From positions 1-39,959 of the forward strand of contig CAMIZK010000008.1 in assembly GCA_946403315.1 (NCBI GenBank): a DNA stretch of 39,959 bases. Direction: 5' to 3'. The number at the start of each line of letters is the position of its first letter. The first letter of the stretch is position 1. Under the pieces are notes generated by a model, which saw nothing but the letters and a program-made list of their open reading frames with translations, ran no database searches and was not told where the DNA came from. This document shows, piece after piece, positions 10,402 to 38,609 of this stretch. Made by a program: the position numbers and the translations under genes. This DNA comes from an uncultured Bacteroidales bacterium (lineage in GTDB: Bacteria > Bacteroidota > Bacteroidia > Bacteroidales > Paludibacteraceae).

Positions 10402-10462
10402 TAATGTACCTTATTAATCAATTTTATAAACCAATTTTATTAACAATTTAATTATCAAAAGT

Positions 10463-11887: not shown

Positions 11888-11959
11888 TTGATTGTAGCCT
11901 TACGGAGGCTTGACGTTAGCCTTGACTGTCGGTTGACCGTCGGTTGACCGTCGGGTTTC
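11888..11959. repeat. Degenerate ~11-bp periodic array with TTGAC core
   Basis: TTGA/TTAC/TTGAC cores at 11888, 11900, 11910, 11922, 11933, 11944; last three units tgtcggttgac/cgtcggttgac/cgtcgggtttc are near-exact. Confidence 0.7.
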
Positions 11960-14438
11960 ATTGCATGAAGAATGCTCCATTGTGCCTTTTTTTGAGAATA
12001 AATGTGCATTGTCCGGCGAAGGCGTGCATCTGCGGCTCAACGAATGAATCCAAGCAGGCAGCGTCACCGTTAGCGGCAGCGACAAATCCGTCGCCTTCGT
12101 ACCGTATCAGGTTATTGGCCTTCGGACAAAGGTTACCGTCCTTATCCACCACCTTCACCGTCATATAGCATAGTTCCTCAGGATTTTCCTCTTCATTGGC
12201 CCAAATAACCTCCAAATGATCCGGCTCGCCTGCAGTCTTTACGCTCTCTCTTGCCATCTCTTTTCCCTTCTCGTCATACGCCACTACCGTAATTTCACCT
12301 GCTTCAAACGGCACATCGAACCACATCAGGCGGTAACGGGGTAATAACTCCGGTCTCGGCGCACTTCCCCATACCGGCGGTACAAAATCGCCTACTTTCG
12401 GCATCTGACTCACTCTCGCTTCCTGTGACTCGTAACCGTTAACCGGTAACCCTTTCGCCATTAATTCCGTTTCTTCCGTGGTCGCAAAACGCAGTTTACC
12501 GTAACTCTTGCCGTTCACAAACAATTCCGCATTCGGGTAACTTGTGTAGCAGAATACCGGCACTAAATCGCCCTCTTCCCAGTTCCAATGCGGTAACACA
12601 TGTAGCGTCGCGTCCTCTTTGTTCCATTGGCTTCGGTATAGATAATACCGATCCTTCGGCAGCGATGCCAAGTCAATAATTCCGAAATAACTGCTATGAC
12701 TTGGCCATGCGTCCGTATCGTACGGCGAAGGCTCTCCTAAATAGTCAAATCCCGTCCAAACAAACTGACCCAAGGTCCAGTTATAATCGTCCTGCAACTG
12801 AAAATCTTGTTCCGGCAGACCGGACCACGGACAATACTCCACGTCATATCCGCTACTCTGATAATCCTCATAAATCGCAAAATCCTTCAGCACAGCAGGG
12901 ATCTTATAAACGCCTCTACTGGATACCGTACTTGCTGTTTCGCTACCCAAAATCATCTTCTGCGGCAGATTCTCATACGCTTCTTCATATCTTCCGGTTC
13001 GATAATTGAAACCCGGTAATTCCACCGCCGCTCCAAATCCGTTATGAATCACATGCATCGCTTGGTCCATACCGTTCGTCACCGGTCGGGTGGGGTCTAA
13101 TTCATGGAATAGCGCTTGCAGTTTTGTCACGATCTCAATACCGTCCGGCAGCACCTGGTTCCATACCTCGTTACCGCTCGACCATAGCATCACGCACGCG
13201 TTGTTGCGATAGTGCTTCACCATATTCGTGATATCCCGTTTCCACCATTCGTTGAACTCTACGCTGTAGTCGTTCTCCGTCTTGCCGTGGTTCCAAACGT
13301 CAAACGGCTCGATCATCATCATCATTCCCATCTCGTCGCATAACTCCACCAACTCCGGTGCCGGCATGTTATGACTTGTGCGAATCGCATCGCAACCCAT
13401 ATTCTTCAGCATCGTGATCTGGTGACGTAACGCGTCCTTATGTACCGCCGCACCCAACGGTCCTAAGTCATGGTGATTGCATACGCCCTTGAATTTTCGG
13501 GTCTCGCCGTTCAACTCAAATCCCCTCTCTGCCGTATAAGAAATACTCCGGATACCAAATCGCGTCTCTTTCTTATCCAATATCTCTTTATCCCGCAGTA
13601 CACGCGTCCGCGCTATATACAGGTTCGGATCCTCAGGCGACCATAATTGCGGCTCTATTACCTCTGCTACGCCTTCCTGTCCTTCTATCGTTGCAACCAC
13701 CTTGCCATTATACAGTATATCAGTCTGAATGCTGATATCTGATGGCTGATGACTGATGGTTTCAACTCCATCCTGCACATCCACCTCGATCGTCACCTGC
13801 GCATACTCTTTGCTCACTTTGGGTGTCCGAACCAAAATGCCGAATGTCGGGATATGAATAGGATCCGTTTCTACCAAGTGCACATTCCGGTACAGTCCTG
13901 CACCCGGATACCAGCGGCTCTGCTGCGGTTTGTTCTCCAGGTACACATCAATATCCACGCTATCTGAATGCTGATGGCTGAATGCTGACGGCAGTATATA
14001 GCAGTCAAACGTGTTGTACCCGTACGGCCAATAAACCATTTCCTCGCCGTTCACATACACGTCCGCATGACTCATCGCGCCGTCAAAAACAAGCGTGTAG
14101 AACTTGTCTTTCTTTACTGCCACACGCGTCCGGTAATGACCCTTACCCATCCACGGCAGACCACCGCTTCGGCCTGTCTTCCACGTAGGCTCCTTCTCAC
14201 CGTTCTGAACAACAATCACTTCTTGCAGGTCATTTGCCCGGTCAAAAGGTCCGCTGATCGCCCAGTCGTGCGGAATAGTCACATCCTCCCATACGGGATT
14301 ATCCGTCGTGTCTTGAGTGAACTGCCACTCCCGCAACAACGTGTCCGTACGAACTGTTTCTTGCTTTGTCGAACAAGCACAAAATACCATGCTACTAATC
14401 AGCAGCATGGTAGAAATAATATTGAAATTACCTTTCAT
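11958..14438 (-). CDS. GH2-family beta-galactosidase (lipoprotein)
   Basis: Lipobox (MVFCACSTKQ), FKGVCNHHDLGPLGAAVHKDALRHQITMLKNMGCDAIRTSHNMPAPELVELCDEMGMMMMIEPFDVW, VMLWSSGNEVWNQ; C-terminal extensions. Confidence 0.95.
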   Translation of the reverse strand: MKGNFNIISTMLLISSMVFCACSTKQETVRTDTLLREWQFTQDTTDNPVWEDVTIPHDWAISGPFDRANDLQEVIVVQNGEKEPTWKTGRSGGLPWMGKGHYRTRVAVKKDKFYTLVFDGAMSHADVYVNGEEMVYWPYGYNTFDCYILPSAFSHQHSDSVDIDVYLENKPQQSRWYPGAGLYRNVHLVETDPIHIPTFGILVRTPKVSKEYAQVTIEVDVQDGVETISHQPSDISIQTDILYNGKVVATIEGQEGVAEVIEPQLWSPEDPNLYIARTRVLRDKEILDKKETRFGIRSISYTAERGFELNGETRKFKGVCNHHDLGPLGAAVHKDALRHQITMLKNMGCDAIRTSHNMPAPELVELCDEMGMMMMIEPFDVWNHGKTENDYSVEFNEWWKRDITNMVKHYRNNACVMLWSSGNEVWNQVLPDGIEIVTKLQALFHELDPTRPVTNGMDQAMHVIHNGFGAAVELPGFNYRTGRYEEAYENLPQKMILGSETASTVSSRGVYKIPAVLKDFAIYEDYQSSGYDVEYCPWSGLPEQDFQLQDDYNWTLGQFVWTGFDYLGEPSPYDTDAWPSHSSYFGIIDLASLPKDRYYLYRSQWNKEDATLHVLPHWNWEEGDLVPVFCYTSYPNAELFVNGKSYGKLRFATTEETELMAKGLPVNGYESQEARVSQMPKVGDFVPPVWGSAPRPELLPRYRLMWFDVPFEAGEITVVAYDEKGKEMARESVKTAGEPDHLEVIWANEEENPEELCYMTVKVVDKDGNLCPKANNLIRYEGDGFVAAANGDAACLDSFVEPQMHAFAGQCTFILKKRHNGAFFMQ
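13721..13755. repeat. In-coding heptanucleotide array, NNNNCTG x5, inside the GH2 gene
   Basis: cagtctg aatgctg atatctg atggctg atgactg; encodes TISHQPSDISIQTD on minus. Confidence 0.85.
13960..13994. repeat. Second in-coding heptanucleotide array inside the GH2 gene
   Basis: ctatctg aatgctg atggctg aatgctg acggcag; encodes LPSAFSHQHSDS on minus. Confidence 0.85.
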
Positions 14439-14459
14439 TTTTCACTTTTCATTTTTCAC
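14432..14459. repeat. Heptanucleotide array at the galM-GH2 junction
   Basis: ctttcat ttttcac ttttcat ttttcac; contains the GH2 start codon (14438..14436). Confidence 0.85.
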
Positions 14460-14460
14460 T

Positions 14461-15456
14461 TTACAGAAATCTATATTCGGTTATTTCGTCTAATTTTTCG
14501 CCCGGTCTCAATACGATATTCGGGAAATGGTCATGGTGAATACTGTCCGGCCATTGTTGCGCTTCCAGGCACACCGCATGCTTTTCGTCATACATCGTGC
14601 CGCTCTTACCTGCGTTGCGCTCGATGAAGTTACCCGTATACACCTGCAATCCCTTCATCGTCGTCCAGCATTCCATCGTCCGGCCGTCCGCCTCCAGTGT
14701 CGCCGCATGACGTAACGCTTTCGGTGCATCCGCTTCGCACAGACACCAGTTGTTGTCGATACCCTTCCAAGGCGTAAAGAACGGATCTTTCATGCGGTCA
14801 CCCAAACGGGTAGGCTGACGGAAATCCATCGGACTATCCACTACCGGCAGAATCTGACCCGTCGGACAGGTCCATTCGTCGAACGGCGTGTACCGGTCGG
14901 CATTCACCTGCAGCATATGGTCATCTACTCGACCGCTGTCTTCACCTGCCAAATTGAAATACGCATGGTTCGTCATGGCAACTAACGTCGGCTTGTCCGT
15001 CTTGGCCTCGTAATGGATCACCAGACGGTTGTCTTTCGTCGCTGTGTACGTCACCCATACATCTACATTGCCCGGATAACCTTCCTCGCCGTCTTTACTG
15101 CGGTAGTGCAGCGTGATTTCAAACAAACTCTGCGCCGTCACTTCCCATAACTTCGCGTTGAAACCTTCCAAACCGCCATGAAGACTGTTTGGCCCGTTGT
15201 TGACAGGAAGAGAGTAGGTGACTCCGTCCAATTCAAACGTTCCTCCACCGATTCGATTCGCTACGCGACCGCAGATCGCATTGAAATACGTCTCTTTCTC
15301 TTTCCATTCATCTGCCGTACGAAAACCCAACACGATGTCTTTCACTTCCCCTTTCCGGTTTGCTACCAACAGCTTCGTGATCTTCGCTCCCAGATTACTG
15401 ATCTCGACCTTCAGTCCTCCCGTGCTCTTTATGGTGTAGAATTGAACTGTTTTCAT
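14461..15456 (-). CDS. galM: Aldose 1-epimerase (mutarotase)
   Basis: VEISNLGAKITKLLVANRKGEVKDIVLGF, NPSLHGG-like NSLHGGLEGF, TNHAYFNLAGE, CLEAQQWPDSIHHDHFPNIVLRPGE. Confidence 0.96.
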   Translation of the reverse strand: MKTVQFYTIKSTGGLKVEISNLGAKITKLLVANRKGEVKDIVLGFRTADEWKEKETYFNAICGRVANRIGGGTFELDGVTYSLPVNNGPNSLHGGLEGFNAKLWEVTAQSLFEITLHYRSKDGEEGYPGNVDVWVTYTATKDNRLVIHYEAKTDKPTLVAMTNHAYFNLAGEDSGRVDDHMLQVNADRYTPFDEWTCPTGQILPVVDSPMDFRQPTRLGDRMKDPFFTPWKGIDNNWCLCEADAPKALRHAATLEADGRTMECWTTMKGLQVYTGNFIERNAGKSGTMYDEKHAVCLEAQQWPDSIHHDHFPNIVLRPGEKLDEITEYRFL

Positions 15457-15484
15457 ACATCAAACATTATACATCATACATCAC
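15457..15484. repeat. Heptanucleotide array at the galK-galM junction
   Basis: acatcaa acattat acatcat acatcac, from the galM ATG to the galK stop. Confidence 0.88.
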
Positions 15485-16662
15485 TCCAACCGCATTACGC
15501 CATTTCCGATTTCTGCTACATAAAAGTCTGCTTTTAGACCCGTCTTCTCTTCGTATTCCTTACCTACAAAGGCCTTGAAGTCCTCGATCGCTTCGTCTTT
15601 CACCAGACTTACCGTGCATCCGCCAAAACCGCCACCTGTCATACGGCTACCGAGCACACCCTCTACCTGCCAAGCGGCTTCCGCCAAGGTATCCAACTCC
15701 TTACCCGTCACCTCATAATCATCGCGTAACGATACGTGACTGGCGGTCATTAACTCACCGAAATAAGCAATCTCGCCTTTCTTCAATGCCTCTACGGCTG
15801 CTGCTGTTCTCGCTACTTCGCCTACCACGTGACGCGCCCGCTTCTTGGCTATAGGATCACTAATCGCTCCTTCTACCTCTTTCCAGTCCTCCGGTGTCAA
15901 CTCAGCCAGGCACTTAATCGGTTTCACTTTACAAATCTGCTCCACAGCCGTCTTGCATTGACGAACGCGGTCGTTATACGCACCCGAATCCAGATGGTGA
16001 GGACTGTGCGTGTTCGTGATCACAACCTTGATGCCCTCTAACTTCACCGGCACATGCTCGAACTCCATCGTGTCGCAGTTCAGATAAATCGCATGGTCTT
16101 TCTTGCCTTGCGCACTCGCAAACTGATCCATGATACCGCACATCACACCGGCATATTCATGCTCGCATGCCTGACCAATCAATGCCAACTCCGTCCGGTA
16201 TTTCTTATCATCTGCATCCTTCCAACCCATTTCTTCCGTAAAGGCACGTGCTGTCACTACTTCCATTGCCGCACTGCTGCTCAAACCGGCACCGGCAGGA
16301 ACATTGCCGTAATACAACAAATCGTAGCCGCTCTCTAACTTGGCCTCCGGATGACGACGGGCGATGATCTCGATGCAACCTAATGCGTAGTTGCACCATG
16401 CCTTGTCCGGTTGAGGTTGAATCTCCGAAATAGGAATCTCGTACTTCTGCGGCATGTTCATGGACTGGAAACGCAGTACCCGATCGGCATTCTTTGCGAT
16501 CAGTAACCATGCTCCGAAACTTAACGCACATGGGAAGACACAGCCTCCGTTGTAATCCGTATGCTCACCGATTAAATTTACACGACCCGGGGAGAAATAC
16601 ATTTTCTCTACTTGTTTTCCGTAGGCTTGCTCGAAAGCCATTTTCATCTCTTGTGTTGTCAT
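15481..16662 (-). CDS. galK: Galactokinase
   Basis: FSPGRVNLIGEHTDYNGGCVFPCAL, VPAGAGLSSSAAMEV, GIMDQFASAQGKKDHAIYLNCDT, RMTGGGFGGCTVSLV. Confidence 0.98.
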   Translation of the reverse strand: MTTQEMKMAFEQAYGKQVEKMYFSPGRVNLIGEHTDYNGGCVFPCALSFGAWLLIAKNADRVLRFQSMNMPQKYEIPISEIQPQPDKAWCNYALGCIEIIARRHPEAKLESGYDLLYYGNVPAGAGLSSSAAMEVVTARAFTEEMGWKDADDKKYRTELALIGQACEHEYAGVMCGIMDQFASAQGKKDHAIYLNCDTMEFEHVPVKLEGIKVVITNTHSPHHLDSGAYNDRVRQCKTAVEQICKVKPIKCLAELTPEDWKEVEGAISDPIAKKRARHVVGEVARTAAAVEALKKGEIAYFGELMTASHVSLRDDYEVTGKELDTLAEAAWQVEGVLGSRMTGGGFGGCTVSLVKDEAIEDFKAFVGKEYEEKTGLKADFYVAEIGNGVMRLE

Positions 16663-17552: not shown

Positions 17553-18365
17553 GTAGCTTTCCTCTGCCGAAGGAAAACTCCCGTCTTTCACGTCTTTGAT
17601 ATATTCGCCTACTGCCCCCTTCACCTCTTCGGCTAAGTGTGCAAAATGGCGCAGGAACTTCGGCTTGAATCCTTCGTTTAAACCTAACATATCGTGCAGT
17701 ACCAGCACTTGACCGTCGCATCCGTTGCCGGCACCAATACCGATCACAGGACAATGCACGGCTTTCGTCACTTCCTGCGCCAACGCAGCCGGGATCTTCT
17801 CTAACACAATGCAGAAACAACCGGCCTCATCCAATAACTTCGCGTCATTCAGTAGCTTCTCCGCCTCCGCTTCTTCTTTGGCCCGTAACCCGTAACCGCC
17901 AAACTGGTTCACACTCTGCGGCGTCAGACCCAGATGACCCATCACCGGCACTCCTGCTTGGATCATATGCTTAATCGACGGCAGAATTTCCTCTCCGCCT
18001 TCTAATTTCACGGCATCGCAACCGCTCTCCTTCAAAATCCGGATAGCATTACGCACCGCTTCTTCCTCACTCACTTGGTAACTTCCGAACGGCATATCGC
18101 ATACCACCAACGCATGCTGGGCCGCACGAACAACACCCTTCGTCAGGAAAATCATCTCCTCCAACGTGATCGGAAGCGTGTATGAGTTGCCGCAAACGAT
18201 GTTGCTTGCACTGTCGCCAACCAATAAAATATCCACTCCCGCTTCGTCTAACAAACGAGCTAAGGTGAAATCATAACTCGTTAACATGGCGATTTTCTCG
18301 CCTTCCGCCTTCATCTGACGCAACTTCGCTGTCGTCATTCGGCTATTCTGTACATGTACTGACAT
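17550..18365 (-). CDS. panB: 3-methyl-2-oxobutanoate hydroxymethyltransferase
   Basis: KIAMLTSYDFTLARLLDEAGVDILLVGDSASNIVCGNSYTLPITLEEMIFLTKGVVRA, VKLEGGEE, PVMGHLGLTPQSVNQFGGY, VIGIGAGNGCDGQVLVLHDMLGL. Confidence 0.98.
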   Translation of the reverse strand: MSVHVQNSRMTTAKLRQMKAEGEKIAMLTSYDFTLARLLDEAGVDILLVGDSASNIVCGNSYTLPITLEEMIFLTKGVVRAAQHALVVCDMPFGSYQVSEEEAVRNAIRILKESGCDAVKLEGGEEILPSIKHMIQAGVPVMGHLGLTPQSVNQFGGYGLRAKEEAEAEKLLNDAKLLDEAGCFCIVLEKIPAALAQEVTKAVHCPVIGIGAGNGCDGQVLVLHDMLGLNEGFKPKFLRHFAHLAEEVKGAVGEYIKDVKDGSFPSAEESY

Positions 18366-18390
18366 CTTTTATCTATAATCTTTTGTCTAT
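18363..18390. repeat. 14-bp (2 x 7) tandem array at the fecCD-panB junction
   Basis: catcttttatctat aatcttttgtctat; contains the panB ATG (18365..18363) and fecCD stop (18387-18389). Confidence 0.8.
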
Positions 18391-19355
18391 TTATTTTTCA
18401 TAATTATCCATATGATCACAGGCGCACCAAATAAGGCACTAACCGTCATAATCGGCAGCGGATGCACGAACAGCGAACAAATCACGTCGCATACCAGTAA
18501 CAGGCATGCACCGATCAGCGCACTCGCCGGTATCGTCACGCGGTGATTGGACGTCTTGAAGATCCCCCGCGCAATATGCGGCACCGCCACACCGATAAAC
18601 GCAATAGGACCGCAGAAAGCCGTGATACCTCCGGCCAACAGACCCGTCGCTAACACGATAAACAACCGCGTCCGACCGATATGAATACCCAAACCCCGTG
18701 CATAGTCTTCGCCTAACAACAATCCGTTCAGCGGTTTCAGACTCAGCAGCACAAACACCGTTCCTGCCATCAGGATAGGTACTAATAACTGCATATCCGT
18801 CCAACCGACACTGCTCAGCGAACCCATCGTCCACACAATAAACAGTTTCAACGCGTCCGGATTCGCGAACTGCTGCAGCAACGTCACCAACGCGCCCGCA
18901 ATAGCTCCGAACATGATACCCACGATCAGCAGACTCACGTTGCTCTTCACCCGCTTACTCACCGCCAGCACCAGCAACAGCACCAAGGTCGCACCGATAC
19001 ACGCCGCAATAGGAAGGCTGATGGCTGAAAGCTGAATGCTGAACGCTCCTAACATCGTTAGGAGAGCGACACCTAAACTCGCCCCTGAACTCACGCCCAA
19101 CGTATACGGCCCTGCCAACGGATTTCGGAATAAGGTCTGCATAATCAAACCGGTTACCGATAATCCGGCACCTGCCAAGATCGCTGTTACTGCCTTCGGC
19201 AGACGGATGTCATGTAAAATCCTTCCGTCTATCTCCGACATCGCTCCGAACGGCCATAACCATTCCGTACCGCCTTTGCATACGTCCAATATGAAAAGCA
19301 GCACCAATGCGATACCCAACGCACCAAATATAATCCCTGTTCGTGTACTATGCAT
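18387..19355 (-). CDS. FecCD-family iron/cobalamin ABC transporter permease
   Basis: RLPKAVTAILAGAGLSVTGLIMQTLFRNPLAGPYTLGVSSGASLGVAL, FCGPIAFIGVAVPHIAR, LVCDVICSLF. Confidence 0.95.
   Translation of the reverse strand: MHSTRTGIIFGALGIALVLLFILDVCKGGTEWLWPFGAMSEIDGRILHDIRLPKAVTAILAGAGLSVTGLIMQTLFRNPLAGPYTLGVSSGASLGVALLTMLGAFSIQLSAISLPIAACIGATLVLLLVLAVSKRVKSNVSLLIVGIMFGAIAGALVTLLQQFANPDALKLFIVWTMGSLSSVGWTDMQLLVPILMAGTVFVLLSLKPLNGLLLGEDYARGLGIHIGRTRLFIVLATGLLAGGITAFCGPIAFIGVAVPHIARGIFKTSNHRVTIPASALIGACLLLVCDVICSLFVHPLPIMTVSALFGAPVIIWIIMKNK
19014..19048. repeat. In-coding heptanucleotide array inside the fecCD-type gene
   Basis: aaggctg atggctg aaagctg aatgctg aacgctc; encodes LGAFSIQLSAISLP on minus. 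Confidence 0.85.
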
Positions 19356-19422: not shown

Positions 19423-20748
19423 TTATTCGATCTCTATACCGGTCACATTGTATTTCTTTCCGTTGCGTTCGATGAGCAACTGCCCCTCATGAACTACTTT
19501 CCGGCTGCTTGTCTTTGACGATTCAACCGCCTCTATTCCTTCTCCTTGTTCCGCAAAAGTGCCTAAGTAATAAGGTGCACGGCTGTTGATTGCGTGACCG
19601 GAGGTAGTACTTTGCTCATTCCAGAAACCGCGGTTGGACCACTTCTCTTCTACCAGTCCCGCCTTTGTCGCCCAGTTTACATAATCGCCGTTGCCTAAAT
19701 CTTCCGGAAACCAATAACTGATACCATCTACATTCTCCAGCGGCTTAAGGTTGTCCACGATATCCTTTACAAAATTAGTTTGTCCTTGAACGGAACATTC
19801 CCATGCATCCCGTGTATCGAAATTCACGCCTTGCGTCGGCCAATATTGGAAGTTATAAGCGCATTCCACAATATGCACACGTTTGTCGGGAAACAGCGTC
19901 TTCAGGTTCTTCAGCGCATTCACTAAATTGTTCTTGTCGCTCTTGTCTGCCACCTGTTCACTCGTCATATAGCCGTGCCAGAAAGGATAGTAACTCAGGC
20001 CGATTACATCGAAATCCACGTTTGCGTCAACCAGTTTGTTGTAATAGTAACTGTTGTAACCGGTATTTGTCGGACGGTCTGTATGTATGATGATTTGCGC
20101 GTTCGGACATTCGGCACGCACAGCGTCACATCCGGCTTTAAGCAGGTTCAGATACGCAGGCCAGTTGTCGTCTTTCTGTCCTTTGGAATAATCTGGTGTA
20201 AAATTGTACGGATGCACCTGAATACCGCATAGACCATACATGATCTCATTGCCTACCTGCACGAAATCCGGTGTCGCACCGGCGGCCTTCAGCGTCTGCA
20301 GCACCATATGCGTGTACACGCTTATACTGTCGGCCATCACAGCATCCGACGCACCCTTCCAAGCAGCTGGCGCTTGGATATGACCGGCATCCACCCACGA
20401 GTCCGAGTAGTGAAAATCCAACATGAAGTTCGCACCTGCGTCCTTGATACGCTTACCTAATGCCGTCACATACGCCAAATCCTGACAGATCGCATAGTCC
20501 GTAGTCTGATAATCAGGCGCTTTCTGATTCGGATGAACGAAAATACGTACACGGAACGTGTTCCATCCGCATTCTTCCTTCAACCATGTGATCAGATCAC
20601 TGATCTTCTTTCCGTTCACATCCTTGTAACCCGAACTGTATTGCTCATACTGCGGTAACATCGAGATGTCTCCTCCTACAAACTTTCCTTGCGCGTATGC
20701 GCATGTGCACAGGAACGCGATAATAAATAAGGTACAAAAACGCTTCAT
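19423..20748 (-). CDS. GH53 arabinogalactan endo-beta-1,4-galactanase
   Basis: Signal peptide MKRFCTLFIIAFLCTCAYAQ; GGDISMLPQYEQYSSGYKDVNG, NTFRVRIFVHPNQ, MLDFHYSDSWVDAGHIQAPAAW, VQVGNEIMYG, IGLSYYPFWHG. Confidence 0.96.
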   Translation of the reverse strand: MKRFCTLFIIAFLCTCAYAQGKFVGGDISMLPQYEQYSSGYKDVNGKKISDLITWLKEECGWNTFRVRIFVHPNQKAPDYQTTDYAICQDLAYVTALGKRIKDAGANFMLDFHYSDSWVDAGHIQAPAAWKGASDAVMADSISVYTHMVLQTLKAAGATPDFVQVGNEIMYGLCGIQVHPYNFTPDYSKGQKDDNWPAYLNLLKAGCDAVRAECPNAQIIIHTDRPTNTGYNSYYYNKLVDANVDFDVIGLSYYPFWHGYMTSEQVADKSDKNNLVNALKNLKTLFPDKRVHIVECAYNFQYWPTQGVNFDTRDAWECSVQGQTNFVKDIVDNLKPLENVDGISYWFPEDLGNGDYVNWATKAGLVEEKWSNRGFWNEQSTTSGHAINSRAPYYLGTFAEQGEGIEAVESSKTSSRKVVHEGQLLIERNGKKYNVTGIEIE

Positions 20749-21986: not shown

Positions 21987-24086
21987 ATGGAAACATACAT
22001 TATTAAACGTGACGGTAAGAAGGAACTTTTTACCATTGACAAAATCAAAAATGCCATTTCCAAGGCATTCATCGCAGTAGGCGCTTTTGCAACCGAAGAG
22101 ACATTAGGTGCCGTATTGTCGCACCTCCGCGTTCGTGACGGACAGACCGTTGAGGAGATCCAGAACCAGGTCGAAGTAGCCCTCATGGCCGAAGGTTACT
22201 ACCAGGTCGCTAAGGCTTTCATCCTCTATCGCCAAGGACATACAGAGGATCGTGAGACCCAGCGCCGTCTGGACTTTATGATGAACTATGTCCAGGCATC
22301 CAACGCTGCCGAAGGTTCGAAATTCGATGCTAACGCGAACGTGGAGCATAAGAACATCGCTACCCTCATCGGCGAACTTCCGAAACAGGGATTCATCCGC
22401 CTCAACCGCCGTCTGCTCACCGAGCGTATCAAAGAGATGTATGGCAAGGAACTCTCCGATCGGTATATGAACCTGCTTAACCAGCACTTCATCTACAAGA
22501 ACGACGAGACCAACCTCGCTAACTACTGCGCTTCTATCACCATGTACCCCTGGCTCATCGGCGGTACCAAGTCTATCGGTGGTAATGCAACGCCTCCTCA
22601 TAACCTCAAGTCCTTCTGCGGTGGGTTCATCAACATGGTCTTCATGGTTTCCTCCATGCTCTCCGGTGCGTGCGCTACGCCTGAGTTCCTCATGTATATG
22701 AACTATTTCATCGAGCAAGAGTACGGTGAGGATTATTACAAACGCGCAGACGAAGTAGTGGATCTCAGTAAGCGTCGTCGTACGATCGACAAGGTCATCA
22801 CCGACTGCTTCCAACAGGTTGTTTATAGCCTGAACCAACCTTCCGGTGCACGTAACTTCCAGTCCGTCTTCTGGAACATCAGTTACTATGACCGCTTCTA
22901 TTTCCAGTCGCTCTTTGAGCACTTCCGCTTCCCGAACGGCGAAGAACCGCATTGGGACAGCCTCAACTGGCTGCAGAAGCGTTTCATGAACTGGTTTAAC
23001 GAAGAGCGTACCCGTTGCGTCCTCACCTTCCCGGTTGAGACCATGGCCCTCCTCGCAGAAAACGGCGATATCAAGGATAAAGAGTACGGTGACTTCACGG
23101 CTGAGATGTATGCGAAAGGACACTCGTTCTTCACCTACGTTTCCGACAATGCTGACTCTCTCTCTTCCTGCTGCCGTCTGCGTAATGCTATCACCGACAA
23201 CAGCTTCAGCTATACCCTCGGTGCAGGTGGTATCTCTACGGGTTCTAAGTCCGTGCTTACTATCAACCTCAACCGCGCTATCCAGTATGCCGTACGTAAC
23301 AACATCCCGTATCAGGCTTACATCGAAGATGTCGTGGATCTTATGCATAAGGTACAGCTCGCTTATAACGAGAACCTCAAGTCGCTCCAAGAGAAAGGGA
23401 TGCTGCCGCTCTTCGATGCCGGTTACATCAACATCGGCCGTCAGTACCTCACCATCGGTGTCAACGGTCTTGTGGAAGCCGCTGAGTTCCTCGGTCTCGA
23501 GATCAAAGATACACCGGAGTATGCCCACTTTGTACAGGAACTCCTCGGTATCATCGAGAAGAAGAACAAAGAGTACCGCACCAAGGACGTTATGTTCAAC
23601 TGTGAGATGATTCCGGCAGAGAACGTAGGTGTTAAACATGCGAAATGGGATCGTGAAGACGGCTATGTCGTTCCGCGTGATTGCTATAACAGCTATTTCT
23701 ATATCGTAGAGGACAAGTCCCTCAACGTACTCGATCGTTTCCGTCTGCACGGACGCAAGTACATCGAGCACCTGACCGGTGGTTCTGCTCTCCACTGCAA
23801 CTTGGAGGAACACCTCAGCAAGGAGCAGTATCGTCAACTCCTCCGTGTAGCGGCTATCGAGGGATGTAACTACTTCACCTTCAATATCCCGAACACGATC
23901 TGTAACGACTGCGGTCATATCGACAAGCGTTACCTCAAGGAGTGCCCCCATTGCCATTCCAAGAATGTGGACTACCTCACCCGTGTCATCGGTTACATGA
24001 AGCGGGTTTCCAACTTCTCGGAGGCACGTCAGAAAGAAGCCGCTCAACGCTACTATGCTGAGAAAAGCAAAGCGCCTAAATGCTAA
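21987..24086 (+). CDS. nrdD: Anaerobic ribonucleoside-triphosphate reductase
   Basis: ATP-cone N-terminus (IIKRDGKKELFTIDKIKNAISKAF), NQPSGARNFQSVFWNISYYD, CxxC...CxxC zinc site (CNDCGHIDKRYLKECPHCHSKNVDYLTRVIGY); C-terminal glycyl-radical region weakly resolved by eye. Confidence 0.95.
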   Translation: METYIIKRDGKKELFTIDKIKNAISKAFIAVGAFATEETLGAVLSHLRVRDGQTVEEIQNQVEVALMAEGYYQVAKAFILYRQGHTEDRETQRRLDFMMNYVQASNAAEGSKFDANANVEHKNIATLIGELPKQGFIRLNRRLLTERIKEMYGKELSDRYMNLLNQHFIYKNDETNLANYCASITMYPWLIGGTKSIGGNATPPHNLKSFCGGFINMVFMVSSMLSGACATPEFLMYMNYFIEQEYGEDYYKRADEVVDLSKRRRTIDKVITDCFQQVVYSLNQPSGARNFQSVFWNISYYDRFYFQSLFEHFRFPNGEEPHWDSLNWLQKRFMNWFNEERTRCVLTFPVETMALLAENGDIKDKEYGDFTAEMYAKGHSFFTYVSDNADSLSSCCRLRNAITDNSFSYTLGAGGISTGSKSVLTINLNRAIQYAVRNNIPYQAYIEDVVDLMHKVQLAYNENLKSLQEKGMLPLFDAGYINIGRQYLTIGVNGLVEAAEFLGLEIKDTPEYAHFVQELLGIIEKKNKEYRTKDVMFNCEMIPAENVGVKHAKWDREDGYVVPRDCYNSYFYIVEDKSLNVLDRFRLHGRKYIEHLTGGSALHCNLEEHLSKEQYRQLLRVAAIEGCNYFTFNIPNTICNDCGHIDKRYLKECPHCHSKNVDYLTRVIGYMKRVSNFSEARQKEAAQRYYAEKSKAPKC

Positions 24087-24115
24087 CAGCCAACAGCTAA
24101 CTGCTAATAGCTAAT
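24081..24115. repeat. Heptanucleotide array, five units, at the nrdD-nrdG junction
   Basis: tgctaac agccaac agctaac tgctaat agctaat; spans nrdD stop to nrdG ATG. Confidence 0.88.
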
Positions 24116-24563: not shown

Positions 24564-24596
24564 AAAAATCCCCGCGAGATTTTCGCGGGGATTTCC
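24562..24596. terminator. Terminator hairpin between convergent nrdG and giant ORF
   Basis: aatccccgcga-gattt-tcgcggggatt. Confidence 0.88.
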
Positions 24597-24629
24597 TTTC
24601 GCCATTGGCCTTTCGCCATTCGCCATTAG
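24595..24629. repeat. Heptanucleotide array, five units, at the 3' end of the giant ORF
   Basis: cctttcg ccattgg cctttcg ccattcg ccattag; overlaps the giant ORF stop (24626-24628). Confidence 0.88.
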
Positions 24630-27600
24630 TAAATCAGTATCTTATCCGTCTGGCTTTGTTCTCCGTACATCGTTCGGATGAAGTAGATGCCATTGACCTC
24701 AGGAAGGGTCAGTTGCATAATTCCTTCTTCCAACTCGCCGTTACCTATGAGCATACCGGTGAACGAGTAGATAGCGTATTGTCCGCCGTGCGGCGCATCT
24801 ACATTCACTATAGGCATCTGTCTCGGCGCATTATTCGGATATACCTGAATAGGATTGCTTACCGTCGGGTAATCAGCAAACGGCAGATCCGGTTTCTGAA
24901 TGGTAATAGGATGGGTAGGAATAAGTTCCTCGTTGATACCTTTGCGCTTAGCCCACATGGTAACCTTGTCATCCTCTGCGAGTTCTTTAGTGTACAAGTA
25001 GTCGTGTTGATATGTAACAATCGCTCCTTCACCGATCTGCCATCTGATATCATCGAACTCATAACCGCAGTTACAATAGGTACTCAGCGGCGCTACTACA
25101 TCGTCCCAGTTTTGCTCAATAATCCAACTTGGATATCGAATCTGGAACTCTAACGGATCGGACTGAATATCGTTACATCTGTTGTGAATCAGAAGTGTAA
25201 CAGTGTAGTTACCCGGTCGAACTCCGCACTGCTGCTCCGGATAGCATTGGCTAACATCTGAAGGCTGCGGAATATTCACTTGAGCCATACCCTTTCTGCG
25301 TATAGGATTATTGTAACTATTCTTGAATCCTACCTGTTTTGCCGCATTGTCAAAGAGCAGGTCGTATGTCATTTCGCCTATTTGATCAACGGTAAAGTTA
25401 ATATCAAATGTCAATGCTTTCTCCGGAATGTAACCGATCTTCTCTGTACTAATGGTTGTGATAGACGAAGCAACAGAGAGGTGTAGAACACCAATGGCAT
25501 ATACTTTGTCGTTCGAATCACGGATAGTATCCGTATAAACACCCGGTTGGGAGTAGAGCTTGTTGTTGAAACTCCATCTGAACTCCGGTTCGTTGTCACA
25601 CAAAGTATATTCTGTTGTATCCGGTGTTATCACAATCAGGTGCAACACACGCGTACTATCGCATTTTCCGATTTGCCATGAGCGCTCATAGTCACCGCTA
25701 TTGTAATACTTGCGGTTTTCCCATGTGTATGGCAACTCTTCCGGTAACAGTCTCACAGTCGTATCCATTCGGAATACCGGATAAACGGTGAGGTTCAATG
25801 TGACGATAGAGTCACAACCGTCAACGCTCTTTAGTTTGACACGGTGCTCTCCATTCTTGTAAAACTTCTCGCCTCCAAATTCGACGGTATCGCCTTCACA
25901 TATCGTTTTGGTGACTGCCGGCATCTCATACGTCGGCGCTTCATATACCTCAATTCGGTAGAGGCTATCCATACGGTTGGTTACGGTCGATCTACGTACA
26001 AAGGTGTAGTAACCCGCGGTCCGAATAGTATCTTTATCAATAATGAGTTGTGAACCCGTACACAACGGAATCTGGTTCCAATCTGAGTAGTGCGTCGTCA
26101 CTACAAACTCAAGCAGATTGATACTGTCGCATCCGTACTGATTGAGGTAGTTGTCTTCAATAATGGTCGTCGCTACATCCGGTATCCATTTCTGGGAAGT
26201 TTGATCCCACTGCGGCATGCCTATCTTCGTGTCATCGTAATACTTGCCGTTATGGATATACGGCACATCTTCGTCCGTGATCACAATACGTGTCTTGGTC
26301 ATCGAGATCGGATTAACGATCAGCGTCAGGTTAACGATGGTATCAAACGATGACTCAGCTCCGCCACTGACTACGGCTGAGTATTTACCGGTTTTCGTGA
26401 TGATTTGACCATAGAAGTTGTAACCGTTACCATCGTCACAGATATATTTCGTACGCTCTACGGTGATCGTACGTTTCGTGTTCACCGCAATCTGGAAGAT
26501 AGAGTCACAACCATAAGCAGTCTTCAAGGTGTCGCGATAGATGGTATCCAACTTGGTGATGTGAATACCGTGGATATACGTTCCTTCTTGATCCAACTCT
26601 TTAATCAGATGTTGCTCATACGTGTAGAACGACGGATGGTTCGTTACCACCAACTCATATATACTATCGAAACCATAAGTGGTCAGATATCGGTCGAAGT
26701 AATGCTTCTCCACATTATCACCGTAACGCGTGAGGTATGGGTTCACTTGTGCCTTACCTTCTGCGTAGATCTTTTGTCCGTGCCATTCGATGGTATCCGG
26801 TGCACAGAGATCCAGGTACTCGGTGAAGTGGTAAGACGGGTGTACCTCCAAGTGCAGGTGATGGATAACATCGCAGCCGTAGTCGGTTTTGCTAATACAT
26901 TCATAGTCTCCGGTCTTATCCAAGACACGCGGAACACCCGTTGTCGCATCCGGACAGAAGGTATAGGTATCCTGATCAGATATATATACGGTATCCCATT
27001 TCTCAAATATCGGCTGTACGCTGATAATATAACGCGTCACACGGTCGCATCCGTTCTCGGCCGGAACCGTGTCGTAGTACGAACAACTTTCTCGGATTGT
27101 GTCTCCGTTAATGATAAACGTGTTGCCGAAGCAAAGGTTGATGTTCTCTTCCACATACTCCGTCTCTCGTACGAACAAATGCAAGGTCGTTACTACCCGT
27201 GATGAATCCGTCCATGCGGTCGGTAATGCATAATCACCTGTTTCACTGTACTCGTAGCCGTGCCATACGAAGGGTAATTCATTACTGCATACATACGCCG
27301 TCGTATCAATCTTGAAGTCTTTCAGAACCGTCAAAATTAACTGATACGTATCCACACATCCATTGCTGTTCTGACTTGTATACGTATAGATACCCGATGT
27401 CATACAGGTGTCGCCGTGGAACATCACCGTATCGCCGGCAAAAATCGTTCTTGTCTCCGTCTGATGGTTTATCGGCTGTACCTGCAACGACAGCATCACA
27501 ATCGAATCACATCCGTTCACCGCCGTCAGTGTGTCGTAATACGTTCCCGACTCCGTCAACATCCGGTTGTCGAATTGATAGAAGTCACCCTCACAGATAG

Positions 27601-36600: not shown

Positions 36601-38560
36601 ATACGGTAACAATCGAGTCGCAACCCAAGGATGAGGTGTATTTGATCTCATACTCGTGGATATCCTCATAGATAATTTGATCGCGGTAAACTGCCGGGAA
36701 ATGGGTGAAAGTCACGCGCTCCGATGTAGCAAAGGTCGGATTGACTGTCAGATGAAGGATATATACCGAATCAGGATCAACCGTACCGTTAACCGTGTAA
36801 TCCCCGGTATTGAAATACTTCTCTCCGGTCTTTTCCCACTCATAGTAATCGCCTTGGCATATAGCTGCGTTGTACGAACGGATGTTCGTCACAGGAGCCG
36901 CTTCCCGCAAGCCCACACCTAAGGTATAGATACTGTCGCAACCGAATGATGTCACATGCCGCTCTTCGTATTGACCATCATGCGTGATGGTCTGACCGCG
37001 CCATATAGTGGTCTCACCCGGATAGATGGAAATCGTATCATGGTGATGGAATGCGATGCCTTTGGATAATATAGTCGTTACAATCGAGTCGCAGGCATAC
37101 TGAACCGATGTGAGCGTGTCAACGAGAATGCTTGATTCTGTGTATGTTATACCATCCCATAGAATCGAACCGCAGAACGGTATCGTACGAGTGGAGCGTA
37201 CAATTGGCTTCACGGTCAGGATCAATTCATAGATACTGTCTTGATCGGCTGCCGTGCGAAGTCGATCGAAATAATGGAGAGTTTGACCGATACCTTGCCG
37301 GTTGAGATTGTTCAAACCGTGCCATTGGAATGGCTCGTTCTCGCATATCGTCACCTCTTCGATGAAATGATAACTCGTCTCATCACGGGTCAACTCCAAA
37401 CGCCAGATATCATTACATCCTGTTTCGCTGTTCTTCGTCGTGTATTCATACGTACCCGGATCATAGATCGTATCTATGTGTAGCACTCCGTCTAATGAAT
37501 ACTGCCAGTAGTAAGGATGAGTCGCATCCAGCAAACCGGTCTGCAAGTGTAGGGTAGAGGGGTTCTTTTGTATCGTGATCTTATATACTGTGTCGCAACT
37601 AATCTTGTTGTAATAAGTTCCCCCTTCGCTATAGGTCACGCCGTTGAACGTCACCGATTCACCGTCACAGATCCGATATTGCAGCGGCAATTCCTGTAAT
37701 GGTCTGAATGATAAGTCAATACGGTATATCACGTGATCTCCGTTACTGCGTGTCCCTGGCATCGAATAAATACCGGTCTGACTCTGCGTGATGCCGTTCC
37801 AGGTATAAATCTCACCCGGACATGCAATCACAACCGTGTCAATCGTATCTACATGATAAACCGTCAGAACCAAACGATTGAGAGAGTCGCAACCGAAACG
37901 ATCAACGTACGACTGTTCATATACGCCGCTCGTACGGTACTCTTCTCCATTCCAGGTGTATGCGCTACCTTCCGGAATGCGTATGTTCTTCTCCGTCGTA
38001 TCAGGAAGGTGACCAATCATGTTAAGGATGGTAACCGAGTCGTAGTCCTGAAAATGGATACTGTCGCGATAGATACCTCCGGCTGTGATGACTTGACCAT
38101 TCCAACTCTTGCTGTCTCCAATACATAGCGTATCACGCACCTGTACCTCAACACGCTCGCGGACACGGACACGGAGAATACTGTCGCAGCCTTCCTGGGA
38201 CTTGTACACTTTCTCGTAGAATCCGGCTCCCGTGATGCTGATACCGTACCAATCGAACGGAGCACCCCCGCGCTCTATCGTTCGCTCCGGCTCCCAGCGG
38301 AGATAAGTCGGATACACATTCACCCGGTGCGTGTTCACCACTGTGTCTAACACAGGCGGCGTGGCAGACGCAACAAGAATGGTGTCATACAGCGTCGTGT
38401 CGCTATATACCACCGTTTGACGAGTGTCCATAACAAGGGTGTCCCCCGGACAAATCTTGTGTTCTACCGGCGTGCTGTATGTGATAGAAGCCTCACCGGT
38501 ACTCACTGCTGCTACTGTCAGTAGCAGACAACTCAAAAATCTATAGAGATGTTTTTTCAT
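24626..38560 (-). CDS. Giant (~4,640 aa) secreted Cys-Asp-Ser repeat protein with T9SS-like C-terminal domain
   Basis: Signal-peptide-like start MKKHLYRFLSCLLLTVAAVSTGEAS; dozens of TICEGxxYxFNG...GxYxDTL...GCDSIVxLxLxV units; C-term PIQVYPNNAPRQMPIVNVDAPHGGQYAIYSFTGMLIGNGELEEGIMQLTLPEVNGIYFIRTMYGEQSQTDKILIY. ATG at 38560 preferred over the TTG start in the ORF track. Confidence 0.92.
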   Translation of the reverse strand: MKKHLYRFLSCLLLTVAAVSTGEASITYSTPVEHKICPGDTLVMDTRQTVVYSDTTLYDTILVASATPPVLDTVVNTHRVNVYPTYLRWEPERTIERGGAPFDWYGISITGAGFYEKVYKSQEGCDSILRVRVRERVEVQVRDTLCIGDSKSWNGQVITAGGIYRDSIHFQDYDSVTILNMIGHLPDTTEKNIRIPEGSAYTWNGEEYRTSGVYEQSYVDRFGCDSLNRLVLTVYHVDTIDTVVIACPGEIYTWNGITQSQTGIYSMPGTRSNGDHVIYRIDLSFRPLQELPLQYRICDGESVTFNGVTYSEGGTYYNKISCDTVYKITIQKNPSTLHLQTGLLDATHPYYWQYSLDGVLHIDTIYDPGTYEYTTKNSETGCNDIWRLELTRDETSYHFIEEVTICENEPFQWHGLNNLNRQGIGQTLHYFDRLRTAADQDSIYELILTVKPIVRSTRTIPFCGSILWDGITYTESSILVDTLTSVQYACDSIVTTILSKGIAFHHHDTISIYPGETTIWRGQTITHDGQYEERHVTSFGCDSIYTLGVGLREAAPVTNIRSYNAAICQGDYYEWEKTGEKYFNTGDYTVNGTVDPDSVYILHLTVNPTFATSERVTFTHFPAVYRDQIIYEDIHEYEIKYTSSLGCDSIVTVYVDREVIRDEISATICPGETYTWRGHEYKEAYRYVETEKGADGKDSVEHILNLSVRYIPETRITKNICEGSSYTFADQVLTEKGVYRYTFREEGCDSVVVLSLNVLKADTNTFVHHMNKGDSYVWNGDTYWEAGTYYDRQINRFGCDSINVLELTINHVDTIDTTVVICPNEIPFRWHGIVASQTGQYTAGERQENGSYNFYRLHLTVRELVRIDTTFTICDDQNITFNGKTYSESGRFFDYLSCDTLMEVIITKHPQQVYATTASLGNSHGYTWTYWDNGVEKTETFNQPGTYEFESPNTTTGCSELWRLILTKNETEYHFVEDITICENEEFSWRGQSGLNHQGIGATSIYYDTYTTRSGKDSIYQLNLTVNPLKRSTETIPFCESYTLSGKNYTTTTTIVDTLKTLYGCDSIVTTVLLKGNAFHRHDTATIVPGETLYWRGQAIINSGLYKDAYTSVNGCDSIYTIGVGMEEAAPQMNIRTWNEMICEGDTYTWRGKDYFNTGTYVDTVYVGNTYEVDSLYVLNLTVNPVYRWSERITFTHFPANYRNHTFNGPETIDIRYASTQGCDSILTLSVDWEVIRDEVTEVICPGETFVWRGNTYSAASRYTEIETGSQGQDSIEHILNLIVRYIPDTYITQTICNGSSYTFGDRMLTESGNYTYTFHTTCDSTVHLSLNVLSVDTNKFVHRMNDGESYTWNGNVYHGTGTYFYYGTNRFGCDSVAVLELTVNKVDTIDSIATICPSTTLNWHGISASQSGDYYSSEQQADGSYNYYRLHLTVLELQQIDTTFTICDDEQVTFNGVTYTEAGHYDNYLTCDTLIRVHINKHPQRVYETRGTLGGEHGYTWTYWDNGVQKTENFNAVGTYEFESPNAETGCSEIWRLILSKDEEEYHFEEWATVCQGEPFVWHGHAGWSNQHVGETTDYTHTYQTRNGKDSTYTLHLTVNPVEHTYRTITFCGETTYKGQLYTSSTQVVDTFTAANGCDSIVTINLDKVNAYIFDESHDLPQGEIYMWHGQPIGTDGVYYDSYKTIYGCDSIYRLTVNIIPASPQVNQYTDNWSLCKGDTVEWRGKQIWLEGTHIDTVWTDGHTKVDSIFVLNISINPSYKDTIVRHMYTCSEGAAIYYQGKVYNEDTTVISNLKTIHGCDSIVKVYMHFNTATFLERSDTIVDTELPYTWTYQLPDPLRADTVLTTSGTYHHFTTSEGGCTNEERMTLVVRPTYLYELDTTVCETSLPFVWRGLSLQHTIGEMKQYEDHLTSVFGTDSIYRVNLTIVEAPRRTERIEICENKDTIINGKSYFDPVLYPVGVVFHDTAYKHSAGNECDSIIYYEITKTPQRHIVETRIMHEGETIDWRGETITELVTKTYTQETEIDPATGCEMIYQLRVIAERKDVVSICALDTPYVWGINGENYYSTGLYTDTVFDAEHFITDYRSLDLTVQIPVDTVKVLRGCQPEGVTWNGVTYLSDTIFRDTLQTCDTLYTVKIQVDTTYTIEIVDTICEQALPYILGRQNPDTIWSEVVRYPHTDKTACGCDSTVYLTLRIIPELTKNDSTFVCEDYLTSGGDVVLGNLTDPWFEHRENGRYSGTWQGKWTGIHYTNDTIVYNCDSSYFHHIIVRPHQALIPEKTYALCKGDSVQLFWPHDTTWIKAPGVYYDTVPTISAWMDTKHNTVIHNDRAYECDSITKWTVVYADTLHEHLYAHIHQGETYVFNDSVLSTTGVYDSIGDYVSAMDSAHHFCKAVYTLHLTVDPTYSYQDTIEICHIANREYTYTFNDDLEEHFAIKFQTPDQDSALLHFTDSTKHLSYGFYDHFYDLVVYYRQQYETHLFDTICNNGYRYWNEHHKDGSRTTRTLHNTGTYFDTVPATNMCDSVIILHLYVREPVQTKHFTATVTDREIPYLWSHTWKQADGTDTTHVDSLWVNGDYEYTMPNRFGCDSVVTMNFTVHYTHVFRDTIDVCAPIETTHTHFWNTGYEQTFTVPNADDTISYADTLITYYPLDSIYVLFVNYKAQTITYLDQNLCYGDSLQFGLSRAHQPRFLKQSGVYRDTLVRTENGCDSIIELRLNVLPRYINDSTRHISTADTPYIWTHVQNGTIIRRDTLHAPGDYSFTYYSKFGCDSIDSLHLFFHQNYLYRDTVQLCQSETPYTWGSKTDIYHTGEYIQNFRTADGEADSTCVRFVRVMPVKYDTITATICEGDSLRFGLTKSGQPRFLTLTGLYNDTLTTVHGCDSIITLSLNFYPKFLKHRQVDIADVDTPYVWEHKSKSGATFKSDTLYAAGEYRFVFESAFGCDSIDSLSLRVHATYQYHDTVSICYNETPYTWYNEDRTKIYKKDIYETGSYTAYLQTQDGYDSTLIRYVHVLPVYHDTVRHSMCEGSDYWFNGVRYSQGGTYVDTLRSTAGCDSIVSLFLTVNKPIYVRIPVDIYEGESYTFFGETYTTSGTYRHYGQTAEGCDSIAELFLNVHKAIDTTVIVCNGELPYIWTNKWTGEVKPLYNAGIYRNDTSYVNGERTFYTIQLIVNEAKYDTIRATICSTDSYQFNGIALTESGIYENTVKGSNGCDSTTTLFLTVNQPYYNYIERHIIEGQSTSVMGLTFDKDTLHTIKGYTPDGCDSITDIKVVVHPMVDTTVVVCANDLPYQWVNKWNGQITPLYAAGIYRNDTTYDAEGRQLFYGLQLIVHEPVVVINHAAICEGSSYLFNGLHLTEAGIYHDTLQKKDGCDSIVELHLTINKPYFSTRTEHIFEGDTIYFYGDTLYTSGTYTHYARTPEECDSTSVLQVVVHPLVDTTVTVCKTELPYLWVNKWNGKVTPLYASGIYRNDTSFVNGERMFYGLRLVVNEPTDTTIYREICEGDLYNFNNRFLGVSGEYRDTIKNGNGCDSVVILHLNVLQKYYHSIERSIYEGDTVMFQGVPYSTAGIYPVRFTSSFGCDSIVELRLTVNRLFDDSVSVCANELPLVWRGKTIYESGIYRDSVVNTEGKLSTIGLKVTVLPTSRLEEPIVATICEGDFYQFDNRMLTESGTYYDTLTAVNGCDSIVMLSLQVQPINHQTETRTIFAGDTVMFHGDTCMTSGIYTYTSQNSNGCVDTYQLILTVLKDFKIDTTAYVCSNELPFVWHGYEYSETGDYALPTAWTDSSRVVTTLHLFVRETEYVEENINLCFGNTFIINGDTIRESCSYYDTVPAENGCDRVTRYIISVQPIFEKWDTVYISDQDTYTFCPDATTGVPRVLDKTGDYECISKTDYGCDVIHHLHLEVHPSYHFTEYLDLCAPDTIEWHGQKIYAEGKAQVNPYLTRYGDNVEKHYFDRYLTTYGFDSIYELVVTNHPSFYTYEQHLIKELDQEGTYIHGIHITKLDTIYRDTLKTAYGCDSIFQIAVNTKRTITVERTKYICDDGNGYNFYGQIITKTGKYSAVVSGGAESSFDTIVNLTLIVNPISMTKTRIVITDEDVPYIHNGKYYDDTKIGMPQWDQTSQKWIPDVATTIIEDNYLNQYGCDSINLLEFVVTTHYSDWNQIPLCTGSQLIIDKDTIRTAGYYTFVRRSTVTNRMDSLYRIEVYEAPTYEMPAVTKTICEGDTVEFGGEKFYKNGEHRVKLKSVDGCDSIVTLNLTVYPVFRMDTTVRLLPEELPYTWENRKYYNSGDYERSWQIGKCDSTRVLHLIVITPDTTEYTLCDNEPEFRWSFNNKLYSQPGVYTDTIRDSNDKVYAIGVLHLSVASSITTISTEKIGYIPEKALTFDINFTVDQIGEMTYDLLFDNAAKQVGFKNSYNNPIRRKGMAQVNIPQPSDVSQCYPEQQCGVRPGNYTVTLLIHNRCNDIQSDPLEFQIRYPSWIIEQNWDDVVAPLSTYCNCGYEFDDIRWQIGEGAIVTYQHDYLYTKELAEDDKVTMWAKRKGINEELIPTHPITIQKPDLPFADYPTVSNPIQVYPNNAPRQMPIVNVDAPHGGQYAIYSFTGMLIGNGELEEGIMQLTLPEVNGIYFIRTMYGEQSQTDKILIY
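27700..29400 (-). repeat. Intragenic super-repeat of ~475 bp (~158 aa) in the giant ORF
   Basis: WVNKWNG-coding landmarks near 28190, 28667, 29141 (spacing 477, 474). Confidence 0.75.
33400..38400 (-). repeat. Intragenic super-repeat of ~1.73 kb (~575 aa) in the giant ORF
   Basis: Cognate landmarks (ENEPFQWHG/ENEEFSWRG/QGEPFVWHG) near 37321, 35592, 33871; near-parallel block order between copies. Confidence 0.75.
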
Positions 38561-38609
38561 ATCCAATTTCCAATATCCAATTTCTAATAGCCATTCGCCA
38601 TTCGCCCTT
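38561..38609. repeat. Heptanucleotide array, seven units of two families, filling the OMP-giant ORF gap
   Basis: atccaat ttccaat atccaat ttctaat agccatt cgccatt cgccctt, from the giant ATG to the OMP stop. Confidence 0.92.

Follow-up and report, generated by a model that had tools for sequence, protein, structure and literature searches.

An array of 7-nt units lies within the coding sequence of a GH2 beta-galactosidase-like gene on contig CAMIZK010000008.1 (assembly GCA_946403315.1), derived from an uncultured Bacteroidales bacterium of the Paludibacteraceae; the whole stretch of DNA analysed, positions 1 to 39,959 of this contig, is hereafter called the window. The genes galK, galM and GH2 follow one another in this order, all on the minus strand (Table 1). 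Among solved structures, those closest to the GH2 protein are the GH2 beta-galactosidases 9bey and 7cwd, among others, and the glycoside hydrolase 5t98; the start of the protein resembles that of a lipoprotein. The initial annotation of this DNA quoted heptamers at 13721-13755 as an in-frame array in the GH2 gene (copy A); these heptamers are present in the sequence as given, and their placement in frame, with the residues encoded on the minus strand, holds. The second array that it named, copy B at 13964-13992, is likewise real.

Copy A is a real array, beyond what chance would produce. Tandem Repeats Finder placed it at 13731-13759, with a period of 7 (4.1 copies, 77% match) or of 14 (86% match). 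Within the 35 nt of 13721-13755, 19 of 28 lag-7 comparisons matched, whereas the best window across codon shuffles of the GH2 gene averaged 14.5 (P(>=19) = 0.002), and the run score of copy A, 11, was reached in none of 2000 such shuffles. The array is imperfect, with degenerate units, while some other arrays are perfect (e.g., TCCAATC x4). On the coding strand, the 3′ end of copy A (CAGCATT CAGACTGAT, 'SIQTD') is conserved coding sequence common to relatives without a scoring array, and this conserved stretch takes in the first units of the array as initially annotated.

In the AlphaFold model of the GH2 protein (mean predicted local distance difference test score, pLDDT, 75.8), copy A falls at a beta-hairpin loop between strands E212-219 and E235-243 and extends into the second strand, and copy B lies between strands E144-148 and E160-168. 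Together with a third site, these form three hairpin loops (A, B and C), at or adjoining turns between beta strands, in which heptamer arrays gather across 66 close GH2 orthologues, the closest named loci being from rumen Bacteroidales or 'Paludibacteraceae' metagenome assemblies. Loop A has the same length in 52 of the 66, whether or not a DNA repeat is visible, and carries a heptamer array in 18 of the 66, belonging to eight heptamer classes. Four more distant members of the genus (59-69% identity) have 23 residues in this segment instead of 30, a difference of exactly 7 residues, that is, 21 nt or three heptamers. The nearest relative (L239, 92% protein identity) has four CAG-spaced units in the same phase as the window with other letters between them (CAGAATA CAGAATA CAGCGTA CAGACTG against CAGCCAT CAGATAT CAGCATT CAGACTG in the window). 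Since loop A is of equal length in most orthologues and 7 residues shorter in the distant members, copy A is most likely an old, fixed and eroding insertion of three units, and the simplest reading would be that this insertion was ancestral and that its repeat has since eroded to differing degrees. The suggestion of a recently tolerated insertion is thus right as to kind; as to age, the same lengths argue against recency at copy A. Homologues free of the repeat with a conserved peptide of the same length had been named as the observation that would speak against the array as an insertion or switch; in the alignment, such homologues do share the length, but the peptide is not conserved. In one orthologue (L232), loop A contains four copies of an 8-residue peptide, LTGERMNG/LTGERVNG, from a 24-nt repeat, and related SERMxELxNEG inserts occur in scattered species.

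At loop B, the segment is 18 residues long in 56 species, 25 in seven, 21 in two (the window and L171) and 28 in one; at loop C, it is 21 residues long in 36 species, 28 in 13 and 29 in eight, other lengths being rare. On a GH2 tree built without the three loops, at least nine changes are required at loop B and 21 at loop C, and the near-identical L202 and L211 differ by 7 residues in GH2. The same loop is filled from different heptamers in different species, including PTANSQQ from CCAACAG, SNIKHQT from TCAAACA and SAVSRQP from TCAGCCG. A strict rule of three units was considered and set aside: it describes the majority pattern at loops B and C, but no genome-wide peak at this size persisted once duplicates were removed.

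The GH2 gene is a mosaic. Compared in blocks of 30 residues, L239 matches the window at 97-100% identity in some and at 71-80% in others, a pattern that points to frequent exchange among species of the rumen. At residues 150-159 (copy B), the DNA of the window is 100% identical to L171, which elsewhere is about 80% identical to the window, and 29% identical to L239; L239 has no array there, and the change of +3 residues is common to the window and L171 only. The galK/galM junction carries 14 heptamer classes among 21 array-bearing species, and the near-identical sisters L173 and L175 have different heptamers at this junction. These mosaic blocks and junction exchanges indicate that the arrays appear to travel by exchange of segments between species, on top of the process that makes them, and copy A most likely lies in a stretch reshuffled by recombination.

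The arrays belong to a genus-wide pattern. In 823 kb sampled from the 1.5-Mb draft genome, lags of 7, 14 and 21 nt were the only ones between 2 and 40 in excess (50, 39 and 25 runs of at least 12, at most 1 being expected), so that tandem units of exactly 7 nt outnumber those of other periods. The sample contained 100 heptamer arrays, 67 within open reading frames and 33 between genes, with about 94% of the sampled bases in open reading frames according to a simple caller; about two thirds of the arrays thus lie inside genes, in frame. Array density per 100 kb was 12.2 in the window's genome, 8.7 in genome G002 and 11.6 in other members of the genus, about 9-13 for the genus overall, and no array was found in samples totalling 148 kb from two sister genera within its family. 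Likewise, exact GCTGANN triplets numbered 83 in the window's genome and 112 in another member of the genus, with none in the two sister genera. Across the order, arrays with a GCTGANN core were found in only 25 of 294 genomes, spread over several families; the reversed-pattern control for this search was not neutral, its units (AGTCGNN) being heptamers of the lexicon. A set of 301 arrays used just 114 heptamer classes, where random 7-mers would give about 261, a contrast inflated by those of the arrays that are orthologous between species. Arrays cover 0.46% of coding DNA and contain 64 of the 606 protein insertions or deletions (indels) of at least 3 residues, compared with just 1 to 8 for lags of 5, 6 and 8-11. 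Loss of mismatch repair was rejected as a cause of the burst, as MutS-domain and MutL families were found in all 24 genomes tested, 11 of them of the genus. In some relatives, complementary heptamer arrays able to form long hairpins lie within tens of bases of each other (L102:18216-18284, 19842-19922; L061:10371-10466).

Tandem Repeats Finder detected at least ten further heptamer arrays in the window besides copies A and B, among them those listed in Table 1. The galM/GH2 junction has in many relatives a stop-start overlap (ATGA) or different heptamers. As in the window, the last unit of the junction array forms the start codon region ATGAAA(G/A) in L174, L183, L225 and others, and relatives without such an array have the overlapping ATGA. 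A single open frame of 4646 residues without Pfam match (24626-38566, minus strand) has heptamer arrays at its two ends. Units of other lengths are also repeated in tandem, an 11-mer (AGTGCGTCATA) in 4.8 copies at 2811-2863 and a 13-mer (TTATTAATCAATT) in 3.8 copies at 10411-10458.

Table 1. Genes and heptamer arrays in the window.
Feature	Position	Strand	Details
GH2 beta-galactosidase-like gene	11958..14438	-	826 aa, open and intact; lipoprotein-like N-terminus; GH2 domains by Pfam
Third short heptamer stretch in GH2 gene	12432..12451	-	GGTTACCGGTTAACGGTTA
Heptamer array copy A	13719..13760	-	residues 227-240, TISHQPSDISIQTD; coding-strand core CAGnnnn x4; scored repeat 13732-13758
Heptamer array copy B	13964..13992	-	CAGCATTCAGCCATCAGCATTCAG (SAFSHQHS); +3 residues relative to most orthologues
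Heptamer array at galM stop/GH2 start junction	14433..14462	-	(AGTGAAA AATGAAA)x2; GH2 start codon in last unit
galM, aldose 1-epimerase gene	14461..15456	-	upstream of GH2, codirectional
Heptamer array at galK/galM junction	15453..15483	-	TGATGTA units; letter-identical in L239
galK, galactokinase gene	15481..16662	-	
Heptamer/14-mer array at panB/permease gene junction	18364..18390	-	
Heptamer array in FecCD-type permease gene	19013..19047	-	AGCGTTCAGCATTCAGCTTTCAGCCATCAGCC; extra residues relative to G026 and G022
Heptamer array at junction of two co-directional genes	24082..24114	+	GCTAACA
Heptamer array at gene end	24595..24627	.	CCATTCG/CCTTTCG
Two adjoining heptamer arrays at gene junction	38559..38606	-	TCCAATT, GCCATTC

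Taken together, we consider it probable that copy A is what remains of three heptamers (21 nt, 7 residues) inserted in frame long ago into a beta-hairpin loop, now fixed and undergoing slow erosion, and that it is one of several hundred degenerate heptamer arrays in this genus of rumen Bacteroidales. The arrays may be born as DNA is added in 7-nt units, probably by replication slippage or tandem duplication, and could persist where their cost is low, namely between co-directional genes and in protein surface loops, their survival presumably depending on selection for frame and on tolerance. Inside proteins, to judge from the outcome, only net changes divisible by three nucleotides would persist, and homologous recombination between related species, as the mosaic patterns indicate, would swap loops and junctions with differing arrays. 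The outcome would be diversity of loop length and loop sequence, with no on/off switch.

Several observations weigh against this explanation. Genome-wide, heptameric indels show no clear peak at 7 residues once duplicates are removed (14, 9, 6, 7, 7 and 8 cases for 3, 4, 5, 6, 7 and 8 residues, respectively), so that simple slippage of three units does not account for all arrays. Copy B added 3 residues and not 7, and at one junction differing heptamers replace each other even in the near-identical L173 and L175. This exchange of heptamers, together with the small number of heptamer classes relative to random 7-mers, suggests something beyond slippage of local sequence.

A rival explanation is a dedicated generator, e.g., a polymerase or a reverse transcriptase that advances in steps of 7 nt, which would write the arrays from a limited lexicon. 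An activity writing tandem 7-nt arrays into gene junctions and protein loops would then exist in this lineage and, independently, in a few further Bacteroidales families, and the resulting general system of loop diversification would be shared among relatives by recombination. The strict 7-nt period, the lineage-limited burst, the limited lexicon, the complete replacement of one heptamer by another at a single site and the recurrence of the pattern in scattered families of the order are all consistent with this proposal. Nevertheless, no candidate gene turned up, and none was tested, and recombination between species with different arrays can explain the exchanges, so that we regard such a generator as unlikely.

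It is also quite improbable that the heptamer DNA is a recognised signal, such as sites for a DNA- or RNA-binding protein, with the protein insertions as by-products. The units do share a loose form, approximately G-N-Y-K-A-N-N, with 4.95 bits against 3.3 after column permutation in the first set and 5.01 against 3.95 for consensus units, and variation between adjacent units is uneven along the unit, lowest (0.077) at the invariant A and 0.184 at its highest. The counts made per core were selected by core and are therefore partly biased. Position-wise variation was not used as a main argument, being clear with the chosen cores and only 2.4-fold without that choice. Junction arrays prefer one orientation (21:5), but this bias is also explained by arrays that contain the start codon ATGAAA. 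Against a signal, more than 100 different heptamers occur, 14 classes are present in 21 species at the galK/galM junction, and in many orthologues the corresponding site is free of arrays.

A phase switch, as proposed in the initial annotation, would require that slippage by 7 nt in either direction at copy A or B toggles the GH2 gene, as in neuO, a known coding heptanucleotide switch that is on when the repeat number is divisible by three (PMC13001214). The underlying argument, that changes in 7-bp units other than in threes shift the frame, is sound, and a natural case exists: an array of +35 nt (5 x 7) at the copy-B loop of L230 (L230:425-448), with TCAGAAG repeats at the break, disrupts the frame and could represent an allele in the off state, a pseudogene or a fault of assembly. 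However, this was the only one of 69 GH2 orthologues scored that was off frame at an array, compared with 65.6% off genotypes for neuO (PMC13001214); off-frame alleles were therefore not common in this comparison, which was made between species only. Homologues crossed 79 coding arrays in a single frame and were frameshifted at an array once, with assemblies displaying only the commonest allele. Imperfect, degenerate units should make slippage less frequent, and several arrays agree letter for letter from one species to another, such as TGATGTA... in the window and L239. The arrays are thus probably not on/off switches, and switching at copy A or B appears very unlikely. Chance or an assembly artefact can practically be dismissed: apart from copy A being by itself short and imperfect nothing favours it, the codon shuffles and the recurrence of arrays in genomes of many independent projects (RUG, RGIG, UBA and others) speak against it, and the lag-7 excess throughout the genus refutes it.

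Seven is an awkward repeat step in protein genes, where single units shift the frame, yet roughly one in ten of the larger protein indels that separate species falls in a heptamer array. As 66 orthologues of one enzyme carry differing arrays at the same three loops, it becomes testable why bacterial repeats favour a 7-nt step and by what route repeats come to lie in proteins. The comparison also cautions against taking a single repeat in a metagenome-assembled gene for a phase switch until relatives have been compared.

Heptameric repeats as such are already known. A 2007 survey cited in PMC4692102 described heptameric simple sequence repeats such as GGGAATC in Xanthomonas and GGGGA(C/T)T in Nostoc. 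As far as the account there goes, these resemble the present arrays: units of 7 nt stand in tandem, some of their positions are degenerate, a genome holds hundreds of them, often between co-directional genes, and unit number and sequence vary among close relatives. They differ in that more than 100 heptamers are used here and about two thirds of arrays lie in genes, in frame. Neither copy A nor copy B has four runs of at least three G on either strand, as a G-quadruplex of the GGGAATC type would need. TAACTGA repeats of Beggiatoaceae, Cyanobacteria and a few Bacteroidetes (PMC4679880) are likewise heptamers of patchy taxonomic spread, mostly just before start codons and with some reversed inside genes. 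Placement immediately before start codons, in a single orientation, fits our junction arrays, but not the two thirds inside genes; TAACTGA sets are built from one sequence and, except for 25 of 170, are fully intergenic, and their intragenic copies lie for the most part at the ends of proteins and do not recur in the same internal loops. Copy A has instead nnCAGnn/nnCTGnn units, and the genus draws on 114 classes.

The neuO gene of Escherichia coli K1, which makes the coding heptamer switch known as well, has, like copy A, a coding repeat of 7 nt in which the reading frame depends on the number of units modulo 3 (PMC13001214); its repeats are many, near the 5′ end and off in most genomes, whereas the arrays here are degenerate, internal, few and almost always in frame. 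The promoter heptamers ATCTTTC of hmw1A/hmw2A in Haemophilus influenzae (PMC8262952) are also 7-nt units, and their complementary unit (GATGAAA, in another phase) occurs in arrays of the genus; unlike copy A, which lies inside a gene, they serve promoter control. The literature covered, which was partial, yielded no account of multi-heptamer arrays lying in frame in Bacteroidales. As far as that literature shows, the scale of in-frame heptamer arrays in internal protein loops and their exchange between species are new.
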